From the IMG/VR virus record IMGVR_UViG_3300047325_000169, positions 1 through 34,735 of that record: a stretch of 34,735 nucleotides of DNA. The stretch is one strand, 5' to 3'. A model generated the notes under the pieces. It had not been told where the DNA came from, did no database searches, and worked only from the letters and a program-made list of their open reading frames with translations. Shown here piece by piece: positions 4,078 to 24,013 of this stretch; the stretch's first letter is position 1, and each line of letters starts with the position of its first letter. Position numbers and translations under genes: made by a program. This DNA is from a virus.

Positions 4078-4242
4078 AAATACGAATTAAACGTTTCAGA
4101 ATATAAACATATGAAAACCATCGCTAATGCCAATAAAAAATGGTTAGCAAAAAAATATGTAGACCCTGAACAAGAATCGTATAAAAAGAAAATGAATAGA
4201 TTGAGAAAAGCCTTTAATATAGATAATTTAACCCATGAATAA
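4072..4242 (+). CDS. Small basic hypothetical protein ahead of terS
   Basis: The 56-residue ORF (starting MKKYELNVSEYKHMKTIANA and ending FNIDNLTHE) is very rich in lysine and arginine (NKKWLAKKYV, ESYKKKMNRLRKAF). Its last 8 bases overlap the start of terS, and the open frame runs exactly from the ATG in the inverted repeat, so it looks translated and coupled to terS. A nucleic-acid-binding role would fit the charge but is a guess. Confidence 0.5.
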   Translation: MKKYELNVSEYKHMKTIANANKKWLAKKYVDPEQESYKKKMNRLRKAFNIDNLTHE

Positions 4243-4669
4243 AAAAAACGGTAGACCCTTGGCTAATATCGATTGGCAAAAAGTTAACGAACTTCTTGAA
4301 GGAGGTTGCTCGGGTGTAGAAATATCGGGTTTTTTAGGACTCGCCAACTCCACTTTATATGAAAGATGCTTAAAAGATAATAAAATATCTTTTACAGAGT
4401 ATTCATCCAAATTCTATTCAAAAGGGGATGCTTTAATTAGAATGGCTCAATTTGAAAAAGCTTTAGGTAAAAAAATCGAAGGCGATAACACTCTTCTTAT
4501 TTGGCTTGGTAAAAATAGATTAAAACAAAAAGATAAAGAAGAAGAAATATCTCCCCTTGTTCAAGAAAATATCAATCTCCTTAAGCAAGCCAGTGAAATC
4601 TTCACTCAATTTCAATCCGCATCAAACCAAGCTTTAATCAATAATAGCAATGACTCTATTTCAGAGTGA
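4235..4669 (+). CDS. terS: Terminase small subunit
   Basis: The 144-residue protein would bind the packaging start on phage DNA and load the large subunit. Residues 5-48 (GRPLANIDWQKVNELLEGGCSGVEISGFLGLANSTLYERC) form the N-terminal helix-turn-helix typical of phage small terminases. Residues 55-105 (FTEYSSKFYSKGDALIRMAQF ... DNTLLIWLGKNRLKQKDKEE) match the oligomerisation region, including the IWLGK motif. The C-terminal tail is polar and Gln/Asn rich. It lies upstream of terL, separated from it by a reverse-strand ORF that overlaps its 3' end. Confidence 0.8.
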   Translation: MNKKNGRPLANIDWQKVNELLEGGCSGVEISGFLGLANSTLYERCLKDNKISFTEYSSKFYSKGDALIRMAQFEKALGKKIEGDNTLLIWLGKNRLKQKDKEEEISPLVQENINLLKQASEIFTQFQSASNQALINNSNDSISE

Positions 4670-4856: not shown

Positions 4857-4891
4857 CATAATCTTTTTTTTATGTTAAATAAAAGATTATG
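4857..4891 (+). repeat. 11-bp inverted repeat burying the terL start codon
   Basis: CATAATCTTTT (4857-4867) is the exact reverse complement of AAAAGATTATG (4881-4891), with a 13-base loop. The right arm ends with the terL ATG. No good ribosome site precedes terL, so initiation may depend on this structure or on opening it. Confidence 0.55.
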
Positions 4892-10982: not shown

Positions 10983-12161
10983 ATGAATGTTATAGATAAA
11001 ATTCCTGTGTGGGGTAAAGTCTTACCCGAAGCGTTCAACCAAATGAAAGAGGCGATGAAATATGAAGCTGTGTATGGCGCTCTCATGGCTGACCACCATA
11101 TCGGTTATAGTGTGCCCATTGGTGGCGTTATTGCTTATGAAGGAAAAATCTGTGTTAATGGTGTCGGTTTTGATATTGCCTGCGGTAACAAGGCTGTGCT
11201 GTGCGATTGCGATGCGGATAAACTTAAAGCGAACATTTATCGAACAATGAATGAAGTACAAAAACATATCTCATTTGGGATGGGTAGAAAAAATAAAGAA
11301 AAAATTGAACATGAAATATTCGATGACAATATATGGTCTGAATTGGAAGTTTTGCGGAATCTTAAAGATAAATCAGCAGATCAGTTTGGTACCGTTGGTA
11401 GTGAAAACCATTACGTGGATATCTTTACGGATGAGCTTAATAGGGTTTGGATTGGCGTTCATTTTGGGAGCCGCGGCTTGGGACATAGTATTGCGACATA
11501 TTTCATAAAAGCGACAGGAGGAAAAGATGGAGTCCACGCAAAACCGGTGGTTCTTGATGAAAATTCAGACCTCGGAGTCCAGTATATTAAATGCATGGAG
11601 CTCGCTGGTCGATATGCATATGCGGGGAGAGATTGGGTTTGCAATAGGGTTGCAACTATACTTCGAGCTAATATTAAACAAGAGATACACAATCACCACA
11701 ATTTTGCATGGAAAGAAAGACATTTTGATAAAGATATGTGGGTCGTTCGAAAAGGAGCAACACCTTCTTTTAAAGGTCAAAAGGGCTTTGTTGGGGGCTC
11801 TATGGGAGATATATCATTTATCTTGGAAGGAATTGAATCCCCTGAATCCAGAACCTCCTTGTTCTCCACTGTTCATGGAGCAGGCCGTTTGCTTGGAAGA
11901 AATCAAGCCAAAGGAAAAAAGTGTCGAAAAACAGGAAAAATTATCACCGAAGGAATTGTTAAAAGAGAAGAACATGACGCATGGATTAAGAAAGCGGGTG
12001 TGGAGCTCCGAGGTGGAGAACTTGACGAATCCCCATACGCCTACAAAAGAATTGAACAAGTGATCGAAGCGCATAATGGAACGATAAAAATTCTACACAC
12101 TCTTTTTCCAATAGGTGTTGCAATGGCAAGCGAAAAAGAATATGATCCCTACAAAGATTAG
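10983..12161 (+). CDS. rtcB: RtcB-type RNA ligase
   Basis: The 392-residue enzyme joins RNA 2',3'-cyclic phosphate or 3'-phosphate ends to 5'-OH ends using GTP and manganese. The metal and nucleotide site is intact: ADHHIGYSVPIGG (36-48), VGFDIACGN with D64 and C67, GTVGSENHYVD (136-146), H160 and GSRGLG, HNHHNFAW (236-243), RKGATPSFKG, GGSMGD and the guanylylated histidine in STVHGAGR (H298). Its composition is less AT-rich than its neighbours, suggesting acquisition. In phages, RtcB is thought to repair RNA cut by host defence nucleases. The start at 10983 has no strong ribosome site. Confidence 0.93.
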   Translation: MNVIDKIPVWGKVLPEAFNQMKEAMKYEAVYGALMADHHIGYSVPIGGVIAYEGKICVNGVGFDIACGNKAVLCDCDADKLKANIYRTMNEVQKHISFGMGRKNKEKIEHEIFDDNIWSELEVLRNLKDKSADQFGTVGSENHYVDIFTDELNRVWIGVHFGSRGLGHSIATYFIKATGGKDGVHAKPVVLDENSDLGVQYIKCMELAGRYAYAGRDWVCNRVATILRANIKQEIHNHHNFAWKERHFDKDMWVVRKGATPSFKGQKGFVGGSMGDISFILEGIESPESRTSLFSTVHGAGRLLGRNQAKGKKCRKTGKIITEGIVKREEHDAWIKKAGVELRGGELDESPYAYKRIEQVIEAHNGTIKILHTLFPIGVAMASEKEYDPYKD

Positions 12162-15418: not shown

Positions 15419-16610
15419 ATGACATCACAGATAACAAATTCAAGTTCATTAGGTCCTCTCATACTCCATAGTCTTGCACCGGCTATGTTGTATGTGCCAA
15501 CTCCTACTATGAACTATATCACCGTTTGCGATAAGGTTTCAATGCCTGCTCACGGTGGTACTACAATTAGATTTATGAGGCCAAGAGCCTTAATACCGCC
15601 CACAATTCAATTGGGTAATTCTGGAATAGACCCCCCCGCACAGGTCCCACAACGCGATATAATCGATTGCCAGACGTCCTGGTTCGGCACAGGGTGTGTA
15701 GTAAACGAGCAAGTTATTTTACAGGATCAAGAAGGCGTTTTAGCATGGATTTCTGAAAGACTGGCTGTTGCCATGAGACAGGCAGAGGATCTAATTTTAC
15801 GTGACTATATAGTTTCAGCAGCTAGCCAATTGATGGCTGGGGGGGGAAGCAATTCTGATAATCCCACTAATTTGGGAATATCCGATTTTAGCCTTGCAGC
15901 TGCAACGTTAGACACTAATAGTGCCTATAAGTTTGTTTCAGGTATAGAGGGAATGGATAGATTCGGTAAACTTTGTGCCGAATTAAAACCTTGGGTAATT
16001 GACTTGGAGTGCCTAGCTGCATAGCAGTAGGTTAACAAGGCGGAAGCGAAAGCACCGTGAGAGACTAAACCCTGAGGACTTCTTGTAAGAAGTATGTGAT
16101 AGTCCGAGCTCGGAATATAAATAAAATCCGAGAAGTAAGCAGAAATGACTTACTCGCCTAGAAATAGGTAGTAACAAATTGACAGGTCCTGTACGAGCCT
16201 CCTATTTCATGCTTTCTAGCACTGAAATACAAACAGATTTTGATGCCTTAATTGGACAAGGATTTAAATCACAATGGGATTACGCTTCAAACACCTCTGC
16301 ATTGCCGTCAGAATACGGAAATGTGTTTAACATTCGTATTTTAACTAGCTCTGAAGCGCCTGTAGCAAGGGGAGCATCAGCAAATGGTCAAGATGTTTAC
16401 TATAATACAGTATTAGGTAAACAAGCTGTTACTCATGTTTCCCAAGACGGCGTAAGTATGAAGCTTATCTATCGTGACCAATACTACAGCGGTATGTTAG
16501 CGCAAAATTGCAGTATTGCCGTAAAATTTTGCCAAGCACAAGCTTTAACTCAAGATACGGCCATACGTAACGTATTGTCAACACGATTAAGCACATTAGG
16601 AGGTCCATAA
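15419..16610 (+). CDS. Major coat (capsid) protein, gene split by a group I intron
   Basis: Join 15419-15996 with 16172-16610. Splicing gives a 338-residue protein with the frame restored at a GT|T valine codon: KPWV then NKLTGPVRASYF. Exon 1 carries PAMLYVPTPTMNYITV and the FMRPRAL, QEGVLAWISERLAVAMRQAEDLILRDY core; exon 2 carries SYFMLSSTEIQTDF ... FNIRILTSSEAPVARG, typical of P22/N4-gp56-type HK97-fold coats. Unspliced RNA stops at TAG 16022-16024, giving 201 residues. The start has only a weak ribosome site after a long structured leader. The stop overlaps the next start (TAATG). Confidence 0.85.
15997..16171 (+). ncRNA. Self-splicing group I intron, 175 nt, no ORF
   Basis: P1: exon UUGGGU (15991-15996) with GCCUAG (16011-16016), a U-G pair at the splice site. 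P2: CUGC/GCAG (16017-16020, 16024-16027). P3: GGUU (16030-16033)/AACC (16068-16071). P4: GCGG/CCGU (16040-16043, 16055-16058), P5: GC-GAAA-GC. P7: GACUA (16063-16067)/UAGUC (16100-16104), the R and S core elements GAGAGACUAAA and GUGAUAGUCC. P8: 16078-16093. P9: CUCGGA/UCCGAG; P9.1: AGUAAG/CUUACU; P9.2: CCUA-GAAA-UAGG. The terminal G is 16171 (16168 is a second in-frame option). No convincing P10 is seen. Confidence 0.9.
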
Positions 16611-17764
16611 TGTCTGAATATAGCAGAATCATTACGGGTCAAGTTACCTCTAATGGAGGTCAAACACTTGTTATTTTACCTTATACGCCTAATTTTATTG
16701 AGATTGACAATCAAACAAGAGCGGTTGCAGGAGCTGGAGTAACAAGCGCTAAATATTATACTGATTGTGGCCAAGGATCTGCTTTCTTAAATACTTTTGG
16801 CACAGGAGCGCAGTTTATTGCCCCTGTAGGAGGTACAAGCAGCTCAGGTTTAACTAGTGGTACAGGTTTTACAACCATTCAAGCGGCTTTATCATTTCAA
16901 TATGGTCCGGTTGTTCAAAATGGTGGAAGCCCTGTTTCTGCATTCTCGATTAGCAAAGCTAATCCGGCTGTAGTTACCACTACCGGAAACCATGGATTAA
17001 CTACCGGTCAATGGGTTGTATTTAGCAATTTAGCTGAAACTTCTTCAACAGGTATGCAACAAATTGCAGGTATTCCATTTATGGTAACCGTGCTATCAGC
17101 TACTACTTTTAGCATTCCATGGAATACTAACCAATCCAATTACACGGCTTTCAATACTGCTACATCTACTAATAACGTAGGGTCTTATAAAACAATTTTA
17201 TATCCTGTTTTATATGCTCCAAATGTGGCTTATATAAGTGCTTTAACTTTAGGTTCAACTACTACTGTGGTTACGACTGCTCCAGCAAATTTTCAAATCG
17301 GTCAAGAAGTGGCCTTTAGAATTCCTAGCGCATGGGGAACCACTCAATTAAATTCTTTACCAAATAATTTAATTCCTGGATCGCCTATTTATGGATACGT
17401 TACTTCGGTAACTAATAGCACAACGTTTGTTGTAAATATTAATTCGACTGCTTACACAGCGTTTAATAGCAATCAACCTTATGCTTCTTATCCGGGTCAA
17501 AAATTCCCTCAAGTTGTAGCTGTAGGTGATGTAAATACAGGAGGCTTGCAGATTTCTGCAGGTTCTGCTTTATATCCATCTCCTCAAGTCTTTAATGGTT
17601 ATGTGTCCAGCACAACAGTTGGCGCAAATACTATTAATGGACCTGCAATCCAAGGAGCTTTTGTTAATGCTACTTTCCAAGGTTTTATAATTGGAGCTGG
17701 TATTAGCGGAACTTCTGGGGATTTAATAGATTTCTATGCAGCTTTAAGCGATACAAATTATTAG
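16610..17764 (+). CDS. Beta-rich virion protein with FCCH-like modules
   Basis: The 384-residue protein directly follows the coat gene, with a strong AGGAGG site and a TAATG overlap. It has a Thr/Ser/Gly-rich beta composition. The module ISKANPAVVTTTGNHGLTTG, with VTVLSATTFSI after it, matches the phage domain often labelled ubiquitin-activating-E1 FCCH-like, and a second module (TTVVTTAPANFQIGQEVAF ... TTFVVNINSTAYTAF) follows. VVAVGDVNTGGLQIS near the end recurs in the next gene. A head decoration or fibre role is likely; no enzymatic residues are seen. Confidence 0.65.
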   Translation: MSEYSRIITGQVTSNGGQTLVILPYTPNFIEIDNQTRAVAGAGVTSAKYYTDCGQGSAFLNTFGTGAQFIAPVGGTSSSGLTSGTGFTTIQAALSFQYGPVVQNGGSPVSAFSISKANPAVVTTTGNHGLTTGQWVVFSNLAETSSTGMQQIAGIPFMVTVLSATTFSIPWNTNQSNYTAFNTATSTNNVGSYKTILYPVLYAPNVAYISALTLGSTTTVVTTAPANFQIGQEVAFRIPSAWGTTQLNSLPNNLIPGSPIYGYVTSVTNSTTFVVNINSTAYTAFNSNQPYASYPGQKFPQVVAVGDVNTGGLQISAGSALYPSPQVFNGYVSSTTVGANTINGPAIQGAFVNATFQGFIIGAGISGTSGDLIDFYAALSDTNY

Positions 17765-21076: not shown

Positions 21077-24013
21077 ATGTCGGATCAAATTTACATAGGA
21101 GACTTTGCAAAGGGTCTAAAATTAAATAGAGCGCCTTTTGTTATCGATAATGACTCATTCCCTTTCCTATTCAATTTTTATGCTTGGCGAGGCCGTATAA
21201 AAAGAAAACGAGGCACTTCTTTAGTAGGTCAGTTACAAGTTCAAGTTCAATCAGTTGCTGCAAATCCTTTAAATTATCAATACGGTCCTATTACTTTGAC
21301 GGGCGGAGAAGCCAATTTACTTGTTTTCCTTGGATTATCACCTTCACCCAATACAATATCTGGAATAACCAACGCAAATCCGGCAATTGTAACCGTTACT
21401 GCAAATAATTTTACCATCGGACAAACCGTTAATGTGGTGGATGTTCAGGGGATGACACAAATAAATGGTGGTTATTATACCATTTTAAGTAAAACTACCA
21501 ATACTATAACTATAAATGTAAATACAACTTCTTTTGGAACTTATACAAGTGGTGGACATGTTTATGTAGCAGCATCGGAAACGATAGTTCCCGGATCTAT
21601 AAGTTTAACCGATGGAACAAATACCTACACTGAACCTACAACACGTAATGGTACATTGATTGGAAATCCTACGGGAACAGGAACTATAAATTATGCAACA
21701 GGTGAAATTACCACTACTACAGGGACAACATTAACAGGAACTTTTTCCTATAATCCTGCTTTACCCGCTTTAGGTTTAAGAGATTTAGTACTTCCAACTA
21801 TTCAAACGACTTTGCTATTTCCCGAGTTATTGGCGTTTGATACGACATACAGTTATCAAATATTTAGTGGAAATTTTTATAATGTAACTTTTTATAAAAC
21901 AAGTGGAGTTCCTTTTTTCTGGTCTGCACCTGATTATCAATTATTTTGGACAGAAAATTATCAAGGTGCTCTTTGGGCAACTAATAATAAACCCGGTTTT
22001 AACTTTTTAAATGGAACTTATGTTTCAGGATCGGGAAGTGAAAATATTACCTTTAACTTTACATCTAATGGATTAAATTTTACGACTCTAGTGGTTGGAG
22101 ATGTTTTATTTTTCAATGAATGGAATACCGGAGGCTCTAACTTAAATCTATTAACTGCTACAGTGAGTTCAATAGCAGGGGCTGCCAGTGGAAATTATGT
22201 TGTGCATTTTACTCAAAATCAAACAGTTACCGGAACCGGTATTGTTCAAATGCTCACAAATACAATACCCGGACAGGATGGTATAAAGTGGTATGACGGA
22301 GATCCTACAAATCACACGGGATTACCTATTAATTCAGGAAATGGATGGGTAAATTTCGCCCCCCCCCTTACTTCATTACAAGTAGCAATCGATGATTTAC
22401 CTCAAGCTACCTATTATTTAGTAGGTGCATTAGCAATCGTGGCTTTTAAAGACAGATTAGTATTTTTTAGTCCTTGGATTCAAACAAGTTCAGGTGCGCC
22501 CATTCAATTATATGATACGGCTATATGGAGCTGGAACGGAACACCTTATTATACTGTAAGTAATTTAGCAACTAATTCATCTCCTGGTACAGCAATTTTA
22601 GTACCCACAAATCAAACCGCAGATCAAAGAGCCTATAATGTTGATCAAACAGGTTTTGGAGGTTATCTTTCAGCGGGTGTATCACAACCTATTAAAACTA
22701 TAACAAATAATGAAGATGTCATTTTAGTCGGATTTGGCGGAAGTGGAAGAAAAACCCGCTTTGTTTATACAGGTGACGATATTCAACCCTTTTTGTTTTA
22801 TAATATAAACTCCGAATTACCCTCTACTTCAACTTTTTCGGCTGTTTCTTTGGATAAAGGTGGTATAGACATTGGTACTTTTGGAATTTGTATAACCGAT
22901 CAACAAAGTTCGGAGCGTATTGATTTAGAAATTCCTGATGCTATATTTGACATACAAAATTTAAACAATGGATTGTTAAGAGTCAATGCAGCAAGAGATT
23001 ATTTAAATGAATGGATTTATTTTGCTTATCCTGTAAGTAATAGTCCTTGGTCATATCCTACACAAACTTTACTTTTAAATTATCGAGATAAAACATGGGC
23101 TGTATTCTATGAAAATTTTACCTGCCATGGTTATTATCGGCCTGTATCTAAATATAATTGGAAAACCATTCCATATCCTTCTTGGCAAGCTTGGAGGGTA
23201 CCTTGGAATGCTGGTGTCAACTACCCTTTAACTCCTAATGTAGTAGCAGGTACACCGCAAGGATATATTTTAAATAAAGGTCAACAAGGCGTTGGAGAGG
23301 CCAACTCATGCACTATTCAAGCTATAAGCAATAACAACGGAAGTATACAAATTACTAGTAACAATCATTGTTTATTAGCTAATAATCCAAATACTTCAAG
23401 TTCTTCACAAGTTCAAGGAGATTATATCCAATTGAATGGAATTTTAGGTATGACAAGTTTAAATGGTGTCATTTGCATGGTTACAGATGTCATTGATGCT
23501 AATAATTTTGTCACGGACTTAAGTGTTTTAATTTATCCTATCATGCCTTATTTAGGACTGGGTAAATTCGCAAAATTATCTCAGCCTTACCTTTTGACTA
23601 AGCAGTTTAATTTTTATTGGGAAAATGGCAGAAAATGCCGATTAGGAGTGCAAAAATATCTTTTAGATAGAACCGCATTAGGACAAATAACATTAGAAAT
23701 TTATTTGTCTCAAGATGCTAATAATCCGTATAATAATATTTCAAACCCTACTGTAGATTATTCTCAAGTCTTATACACATGTCCTGAGAGTACAAATTTA
23801 GGTCTAACGCCTTTTAATGTCAATTTACAAACTCCGACCGCTTTCTCTCAAGATCAAATATGGCATAGAATGAATACATCTTTGTTAGGCGATTCAGTTC
23901 AAATAGGAATGACATTGAATGAATTTCAAATGAAAAACATGGCGTATACTCAAAGTGAAATAACCTTACACGGTATACAATTAACAATACAGGCATCACA
24001 ATTATTATGTTAG
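21077..24013 (+). CDS. Large tail hub/stabilisation protein
   Basis: The 978-residue protein begins YIGDFAKGLKLNRAPFVIDN then DSFPFLFNFYAWRGRIKRKR, a start typical of the large tail protein following the adaptor in P22-like phages (gp10 role; T7 gp12 analogue). Residues ~95-170 hold an FCCH-like insert (ANPAIVTVTANNFTIGQTVN). The centre (VGFGGSGRKTRFVYTGDDIQ; DYLNEWIYFAYPVSNSPWSY; LLLNYRDKTWAVFYENFTCH) looks like beta-propeller blades. It likely plugs the portal after packaging and anchors the spikes. Its stop overlaps the next start by 7 bases. Confidence 0.65.
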   Translation: MSDQIYIGDFAKGLKLNRAPFVIDNDSFPFLFNFYAWRGRIKRKRGTSLVGQLQVQVQSVAANPLNYQYGPITLTGGEANLLVFLGLSPSPNTISGITNANPAIVTVTANNFTIGQTVNVVDVQGMTQINGGYYTILSKTTNTITINVNTTSFGTYTSGGHVYVAASETIVPGSISLTDGTNTYTEPTTRNGTLIGNPTGTGTINYATGEITTTTGTTLTGTFSYNPALPALGLRDLVLPTIQTTLLFPELLAFDTTYSYQIFSGNFYNVTFYKTSGVPFFWSAPDYQLFWTENYQGALWATNNKPGFNFLNGTYVSGSGSENITFNFTSNGLNFTTLVVGDVLFFNEWNTGGSNLNLLTATVSSIAGAASGNYVVHFTQNQTVTGTGIVQMLTNTIPGQDGIKWYDGDPTNHTGLPINSGNGWVNFAPPLTSLQVAIDDLPQATYYLVGALAIVAFKDRLVFFSPWIQTSSGAPIQLYDTAIWSWNGTPYYTVSNLATNSSPGTAILVPTNQTADQRAYNVDQTGFGGYLSAGVSQPIKTITNNEDVILVGFGGSGRKTRFVYTGDDIQPFLFYNINSELPSTSTFSAVSLDKGGIDIGTFGICITDQQSSERIDLEIPDAIFDIQNLNNGLLRVNAARDYLNEWIYFAYPVSNSPWSYPTQTLLLNYRDKTWAVFYENFTCHGYYRPVSKYNWKTIPYPSWQAWRVPWNAGVNYPLTPNVVAGTPQGYILNKGQQGVGEANSCTIQAISNNNGSIQITSNNHCLLANNPNTSSSSQVQGDYIQLNGILGMTSLNGVICMVTDVIDANNFVTDLSVLIYPIMPYLGLGKFAKLSQPYLLTKQFNFYWENGRKCRLGVQKYLLDRTALGQITLEIYLSQDANNPYNNISNPTVDYSQVLYTCPESTNLGLTPFNVNLQTPTAFSQDQIWHRMNTSLLGDSVQIGMTLNEFQMKNMAYTQSEITLHGIQLTIQASQLLC

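Follow-up and report, generated by a model that had tools for sequence, protein, structure and literature searches.

The window, by which we mean the whole 34,735-nt stretch analyzed (positions 1 to 34,735 of IMG/VR record IMGVR_UViG_3300047325_000169), encodes a major capsid protein in two pieces (Table 1). An open reading frame (ORF) of 201 aa opens at 15419 and stops at 16022-16024, and downstream coding restarts in a different frame; ORF analysis bears out a previous reading of the DNA made from its letters alone (the sequence-only reading), which had described this interruption. Both halves match phrog_1357, a major head protein family, and they do so at adjacent profile positions (20-201 for the upstream half and 205-305 for the downstream half). 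Scanning IMG/VR with exon 1 identified 211 relatives, of which 80 were kept, and a second IMG/VR scan with exon 2 as query gave 80 further loci, on contigs partly shared with the exon 1 scan. Six loci were detected in GTDB genomes, all in binned contigs of unrelated taxa, which therefore indicate no host. The exon 1 protein had no relative at E ≤ 1e-5 among 50,697 sequenced phage records, and searches of sequenced phages gave only short, weak matches to the intron DNA (best E = 0.2) and no match to the intron tail peptide.

Boundaries of the insertion and the predicted spliced product

In intronless relatives the protein is continuous through MDRFG-TGPVR, whereas in the window the same residues are parted by exactly 214 nt. 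Because the intronless relatives run FG straight into TGPV, the insertion is delimited to 15968-16181. The last base of the 5′ exon is U15967 and the last base of the insertion is G16181, the terminal G of a group I intron. Excision of 15968-16181 would join U15967 to A16182 and give a 325-residue protein in which MDRFG is followed by TGPVR, the layout found in the intronless relatives. An intron of 175 nt at 15997-16171, spliced through U15996 and G16171, had been proposed previously. We rejected those splice sites: their product would have 338 residues, and the 13 surplus residues, KLCAELKPWVNKL, are intron sequence that occurs in no intronless relative. The sequence formerly taken for the 5′ splice region belongs instead to P3. 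The gap had correctly been said to contain no endonuclease ORF, since the window's intron has no ORF of its own and hence lacks the encoded homing endonuclease that characterizes a homing intron.

Table 1. Predicted features of the interrupted capsid gene in the window, and loci of relatives with mini-introns
Feature	Position	Strand	Evidence
Exon 1 of the major capsid gene, 183 codons, ends MDRFG	15419..15967	+	phrog_1357 match; alignment to intronless relatives
P1 5′ strand, exon GAUUCGGU, last U in U·G wobble	15960..15967	+	Guide-pairing analysis; MFE fold; covariation
Predicted group I intron, 214 nt, U/G boundaries, phase 0 after codon 183	15968..16181	+	Exact insertion relative to intronless alleles; spliced alignment; covariation
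Intron-encoded in-frame extension of the predicted unspliced product, KLCAELKPWVIDLECLAA then stop	15968..16024	+	In-frame reading across insertions
P10 strand UUUGU, pairs with exon 2 ACAGG at 16182-16186	15972..15976	+	5 bp vs. control mean 0.7 bp
Internal guide sequence (P1 3′ strand), GCCGAAUU	15977..15984	+	Guide-pairing analysis; fold
P3 5′ strand (3′ strand 16069-16077)	15989..15996	+	Fold; covariation
P4 (16003-16006 with 16036-16039) around P5 (16011-16020 with 16024-16032)	16003..16039	+	P4 100% paired, compensatory changes
ssrA-like C-terminal codons CTA GCT GCA TAG (LAA, stop), within P5	16013..16024	+	ORF list; tail analysis
P6/P6a, GAAA loop	16040..16058	+	P6 100% paired, compensatory changes
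P7 (16061-16067 with 16100-16105), pseudoknotted with P3; P8 at 16078-16093	16061..16105	+	P7 99.4% paired
P9, P9.1, and P9.2 hairpins	16109..16169	+	P9 100% paired; P9.2 poorly aligned
Terminal guanosine (omega G) of the predicted intron	16181	+	Intronless alleles; spliced alignment
Exon 2 of the major capsid gene, starts TGPVRAS, 142 codons plus stop	16182..16610	+	phrog_1357 match; intronless relatives
Mini-intron loci in relatives: L137, L203, L205, L228, L232, L245, L249, L251, L252, L256, L271, L274, L276, L278, L283, L284, L286, and others			

A compact group I fold with covariation in its core helices

Minimum free energy (MFE) folding of 15955-16190 gives P1, P3, P4, P5, P6, P8, P9, P9.1, and P9.2 (z = -3.9). 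P7 fits as a pseudoknot of GAGACUA with UAGUCC, in which G16061, G16063, and the ACUA segment pair with 16100-16105 and A16062 is bulged. P1 comprises 8 bp including the U·G, with the last exon U facing a guide G, and the U·G is present in all 24 of the aligned introns that have letters at that column. The guanosine-site pair G16063-C16104 is G-C in 27/27 introns, next to the bulged A16062. In 27 compact introns of the capsid gene family, 82.0% of cells are paired compared with 61.0% after shuffling, and the covariation score of 0.483 compares with 0.169 for shuffled alignments and at most 0.169 when the alignment is slid by 1-3 columns. Compensatory changes were found in P3, P4, P5, P6, P7, P8, and P9. 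The element thus has the P4-P6 and P3-P9 domains with the P3/P7 pseudoknot that define group I introns.

The MFE fold, the P7 pseudoknot, and the covariation agree with the sequence-only reading that the gap contains a group I core, and its P7 pairing stands. Among the other helices that it listed, P3, P4, P5, P8, P9, P9.1, and P9.2 all appear in the MFE fold, but its P1 was wrong, the true P1 pairing the exon sequence at 15960-15967; nothing between P1 and P3 could be drawn as a P2; and the GAAA hairpin that it assigned to P5 sits in P6. A covariance search with the Intron_gpI model, suggested as a check, was run: Rfam RF00028 gave no match on the window, either at the gathering threshold or at E ≤ 10. 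The same model does find another group I intron in a relative (L229, 2561-2803, 76.9 bits), which belongs to another subtype within the same gene family. Because RF00028 misses the window's intron, the call rests on comparative evidence and not on the public model. That evidence, consisting of the comparative boundaries, the exon matches of P1 and P10, and the covariation of all core helices, strongly supports the prediction that the major capsid gene holds a compact group I intron. That RF00028 fails here suggests that similarly compact introns are going unnoticed in viral genomes.

DNA alone was looked at, and a capsid gene split by a bypass or frameshift element, or by an assembly error, would require no intron at the RNA level. 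We regard such an origin as highly improbable and rejected it, since 214 nt are inserted exactly relative to the intronless alleles, the group I fold covaries in 27 relatives, the guide pairs with both exons, and comparable insertions are found across many independent contigs.

Insertions across the capsid gene family

A purpose-written spliced-alignment program, which favored U/G ends and did not force them, was applied to 126 distinct loci, among which some near-identical ones remain. No insertion was found in 66 loci, and the other 60 contain one to five each, amounting to 137 insertions at about 34 positions; because the introns share ancestry, these counts do not represent independent events. 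U/G boundaries are present in all but one of the 137 insertions. The guides match their own exons, with P1 averaging 7.0 bp versus 3.6 bp when paired with the exons of other sites, and P10 averaging 2.8 versus 0.7 bp. At the window's own site, codon 183, the introns of relatives are 370-827 nt long, and two of them (L025 and L081) contain a LAGLIDADG ORF on the opposite strand. Two nearby sites are also used, one at codon 182 (phase 2), 5 nt before the window's site, and one at codon 186, 9 nt after it, and the guide is matched to each.

An in-frame tail ending in Leu-Ala-Ala

Without splicing, the exon 1 frame runs 57 nt into the intron and adds 18 residues that end VIDLECLAA before the stop codon (GKLCAELKPWVIDLECLAA), 15 intron-coded residues preceding the LAA. 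This is the very stop codon quoted in the sequence-only reading, which did not mention the tail. ClpXP recognizes the ssrA tag chiefly by its terminal Ala-Ala, and LAA by itself is too short a tail on GFP, where longer ones are effective (PMC7652416); LAA is the common end of bacterial ssrA tags (PMC9382460). The tail in the window has such a C-terminal Ala-Ala behind an extended tail, where the comparison is with bacterial ssrA in general, which may differ from that of the phage's host.

Endings of this kind are rare among other ORFs: only one of the 81 ORFs in the window ends in AA, the exon 1 read-through ORF, and the background in relatives is 27/1357 ORFs. When the exon frame is followed to its first in-frame stop, the reading ends in Ala-Ala in 81 of the 137 insertions, including 51 with LAA; the corresponding number in each of the other two frames is 0/137. 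At the first insertion past residue 60 that a ribosome would meet, the Ala-Ala ending is present in 50 of 55 genes, and two of the five exceptions end in LVA and one in LTA. None of the 12 insertions at residue 36 or less has it, and the later insertions without a tail are nearly all downstream of a tail-bearing insertion. Two clear exceptions are tail-less first introns past residue 60, in L206 (residue 122), which has an immediate stop, and in L249 (residue 68), which has an immediate or near-immediate one. The Ala-Ala tail occurs at 22 of 34 distinct sites and in all three phases. The P4 motif GACTTGGA lies in frame 0 in 43/43 tail-bearing introns (phases 0, 1, and 2) and in scattered frames in the others, and the alanine and stop codons of the tail vary synonymously.

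In other phages, 45 members of this intron family have a long upstream ORF; 41 of the 45 are in frame 0, and 23 of those 41 end in AA. Such cases are mostly in other capsid-like genes, and one is in what we take, judging from its sequence, to be an anaerobic ribonucleotide reductase gene. We found no report of intron-encoded degradation tails in the open-access papers searched.

Coreless mini-introns in relatives

Relatives of the window also carry 34 insertions of only 32-93 nt, at capsid protein residues 90, 94, 106, and 116 (loci in Table 1), which have U/G ends and are too small to hold a ribozyme core; the window itself has no mini-intron. Their guides pair with both exons, with 7.0 bp in P1 and 4.8 bp in P10 versus 0.6 in controls, and each of the 34 is followed, 24-168 nt downstream, by a full group I intron of the same gene. 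The arrangement suggests that the mini-introns are probably spliced by the core of the neighboring intron. Two longer insertions at residue 106 (953 nt in L210 and 950 nt in L257) are likewise coreless and contain a 292-codon LAGLIDADG ORF between the LAA stop and the guide; this element is possibly a mobile intron without a ribozyme. The group III introns and twintrons of Euglena plastids are short introns, related to group II, that rely on the catalytic machinery of another intron. The mini-introns parallel the group III introns conceptually but carry group I guides (P1/P10), and splicing by a neighbor, if it occurs, would make these coreless introns an equivalent, within group I, of group II's dependent introns.

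Origin and proposed role of the tail

Four different places encode the same ending. In the window and in most other introns the tail is coded in the P5 hairpin; in some relatives it is coded in the P6 region (QAKAA and QYALAA); L211 at 125, L229 at 92, and several mini-introns code it before the guide, in the P1 loop; and one class of mini-intron obtains it from exon 2 read out of frame (RLAA). The L229 insertion opens with its in-frame tail, YLLAA, and also has a LAGLIDADG ORF. In the RLAA class one exon codon is ATA or GTA in 7/7 alleles, compared with 10/88 alleles without a nearby mini-intron (p = 1.8e-6), and the coding sequence of exon 2 seems to be tuned to yield the Ala-Ala ending. Because the ending is encoded in four different places, RNA structure does not account for the tail. 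As a control, the T4 td and nrdB exons were read into their introns and end in LG and FA, with no such tail.

These observations bear on whether the tail is selected as protein. The window could contain an ordinary compact group I intron in which LAA plays no part in protein turnover and is a by-product of the conserved P5 motif (the GCUGCAUAGC hairpin) and of common ancestry; the introns are indeed homologous, and in the window and many relatives the alanine codons fall in the P5 hairpin. We consider this unlikely, given that the ending arises from four unrelated RNA places, in three insertion phases and in the exon frame only, that early introns and those downstream of a tail-bearing mini-intron keep the core without the tail, and that exon 2 codons appear recoded to produce it. 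It is quite unlikely, too, that the extension is retained for RNA reasons, translation aiding folding or timing splicing and the stop having to fall before P4/P6, with Ala-Ala merely a favored termination context. Splicing of a T4 intron has been proposed to depend on translation (PMC11878797), and the frame across P1-P4 does stay open in tail-bearing introns, but such an explanation predicts neither Ala-Ala at 22 sites, including mini-introns that have no P4, nor the absence of the tail from introns near the gene start, and the T4 td and nrdB readings lack the tail.

We therefore favor, with a probability of roughly 0.8, a group I intron with an in-frame ssrA-like tail that would mark capsid fragments made from unspliced mRNA for ClpXP-type proteolysis. 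In the proposed mechanism, guanosine would attack after U15967 in P1, and P10 would help join exon 1 to A16182 to give the 325-residue capsid protein. A ribosome arriving ahead of splicing would produce exon 1 plus the 18 intron-coded residues ending in Leu-Ala-Ala. By mimicking a bacterial ssrA tag, this tail would direct the truncated capsid fragment to degradation by the host's ClpXP or a comparable C-end protease; the phage, we infer, would benefit in that capsid fragments would be kept from accumulating and poisoning head assembly. The position of an intron would then matter, because the very short fragments from early introns would need no tag whereas long capsid fragments would. The tail-less first introns of L206 and L249 count against the degradation-tail reading, as do endings in a more distant phage group: in related introns there (L096, L109, L140, L164, L166, L182, L184, and others; capsid ~45% identical) the endings are VVALS, EVVFN, EVAFS, AVANS, or similar rather than AA, and these are perhaps a degradation signal for another host.

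A broader proposal, which we hold somewhat more probable than its negation, is that two-part devices combining a ribozyme with an in-frame ssrA-like degron are found in a large uncultured phage lineage, and that the coreless introns of relatives, each consisting of a guide and a degron and one carrying a LAGLIDADG gene, are spliced by the next ribozyme downstream. If the degradation-tail reading is correct, it would show how a phage affords introns in a top-expressed, assembly-critical gene, with splicing failures yielding quickly destroyed protein, and it would tie self-splicing RNA to bacterial protein quality control. It would also suggest that the cost of unspliced products shapes introns.

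Comparison with known introns and degradation tags

Phage capsid genes were already known to contain introns. Mycobacteriophage LittleE has a capsid-gene intron whose splicing was demonstrated through RT-PCR and protein sequencing, and the same paper cites lactococcal phage Tuc2009 as a further case (PMC3706429). The LittleE intron is, like the one in the window, group I-like and located in the major capsid gene, and it has a LAGLIDADG-type ORF on the bottom strand, a feature shared by L025 and L081 at the window's site. It is, however, 819 bp long and known from one site, whereas the capsid family here has about 34, and the available text describes no degradation tail (PMC3706429), whereas the window's intron encodes an LAA tail.

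With phage group I introns more widely (T4 td, nrdB, and nrdD, SPO1, Twort, and Bastillevirinae) the predicted intron shares the U·G of P1, the terminal G, the P3-P9 core, and the guanosine site in P7, and those introns are likewise in protein-coding genes, with or without a homing endonuclease. Unlike them, the window's intron has no P2 that we could find, is 214 nt long, and is undetected by RF00028. The T4 td reading stops at the first intron codon, whereas the exon frame in the window continues for 57 nt to the LAA stop. Like the ssrA (tmRNA) tag and the Ala-Ala degrons of ClpXP, the window's intron would give a truncated protein an extended tail with Leu-Ala-Ala at its C terminus (PMC7652416). 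It differs in being intron-encoded and added by ordinary translation up to a stop codon, whereas the ssrA tag is added by tmRNA.

Other features of the window

A second intron elsewhere in the window, in particular between the ORF at 4235-4669 and the ORF beginning at 4889, was considered and rejected, as these ORFs resemble terminase subunits (small and large) and the stretch between them has no core motif. An RtcB-type RNA ligase gene (10983-12161; phrog_1075, E = 4.6e-75) lies ~3.3 kb upstream of the capsid gene. In the 42 relatives readable over the 4.4 kb upstream of the capsid gene, whether intron-bearing or not, RtcB is absent, which leaves a role for RtcB in intron removal unsupported. 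Downstream of the capsid gene, the virion-region proteins encoded at 16610-17764 and 21077-24013 match the Pfam E1_FCCH domain (ubiquitin-activating enzyme E1 FCCH domain) with E = 8.6e-9 and 3.4e-12.
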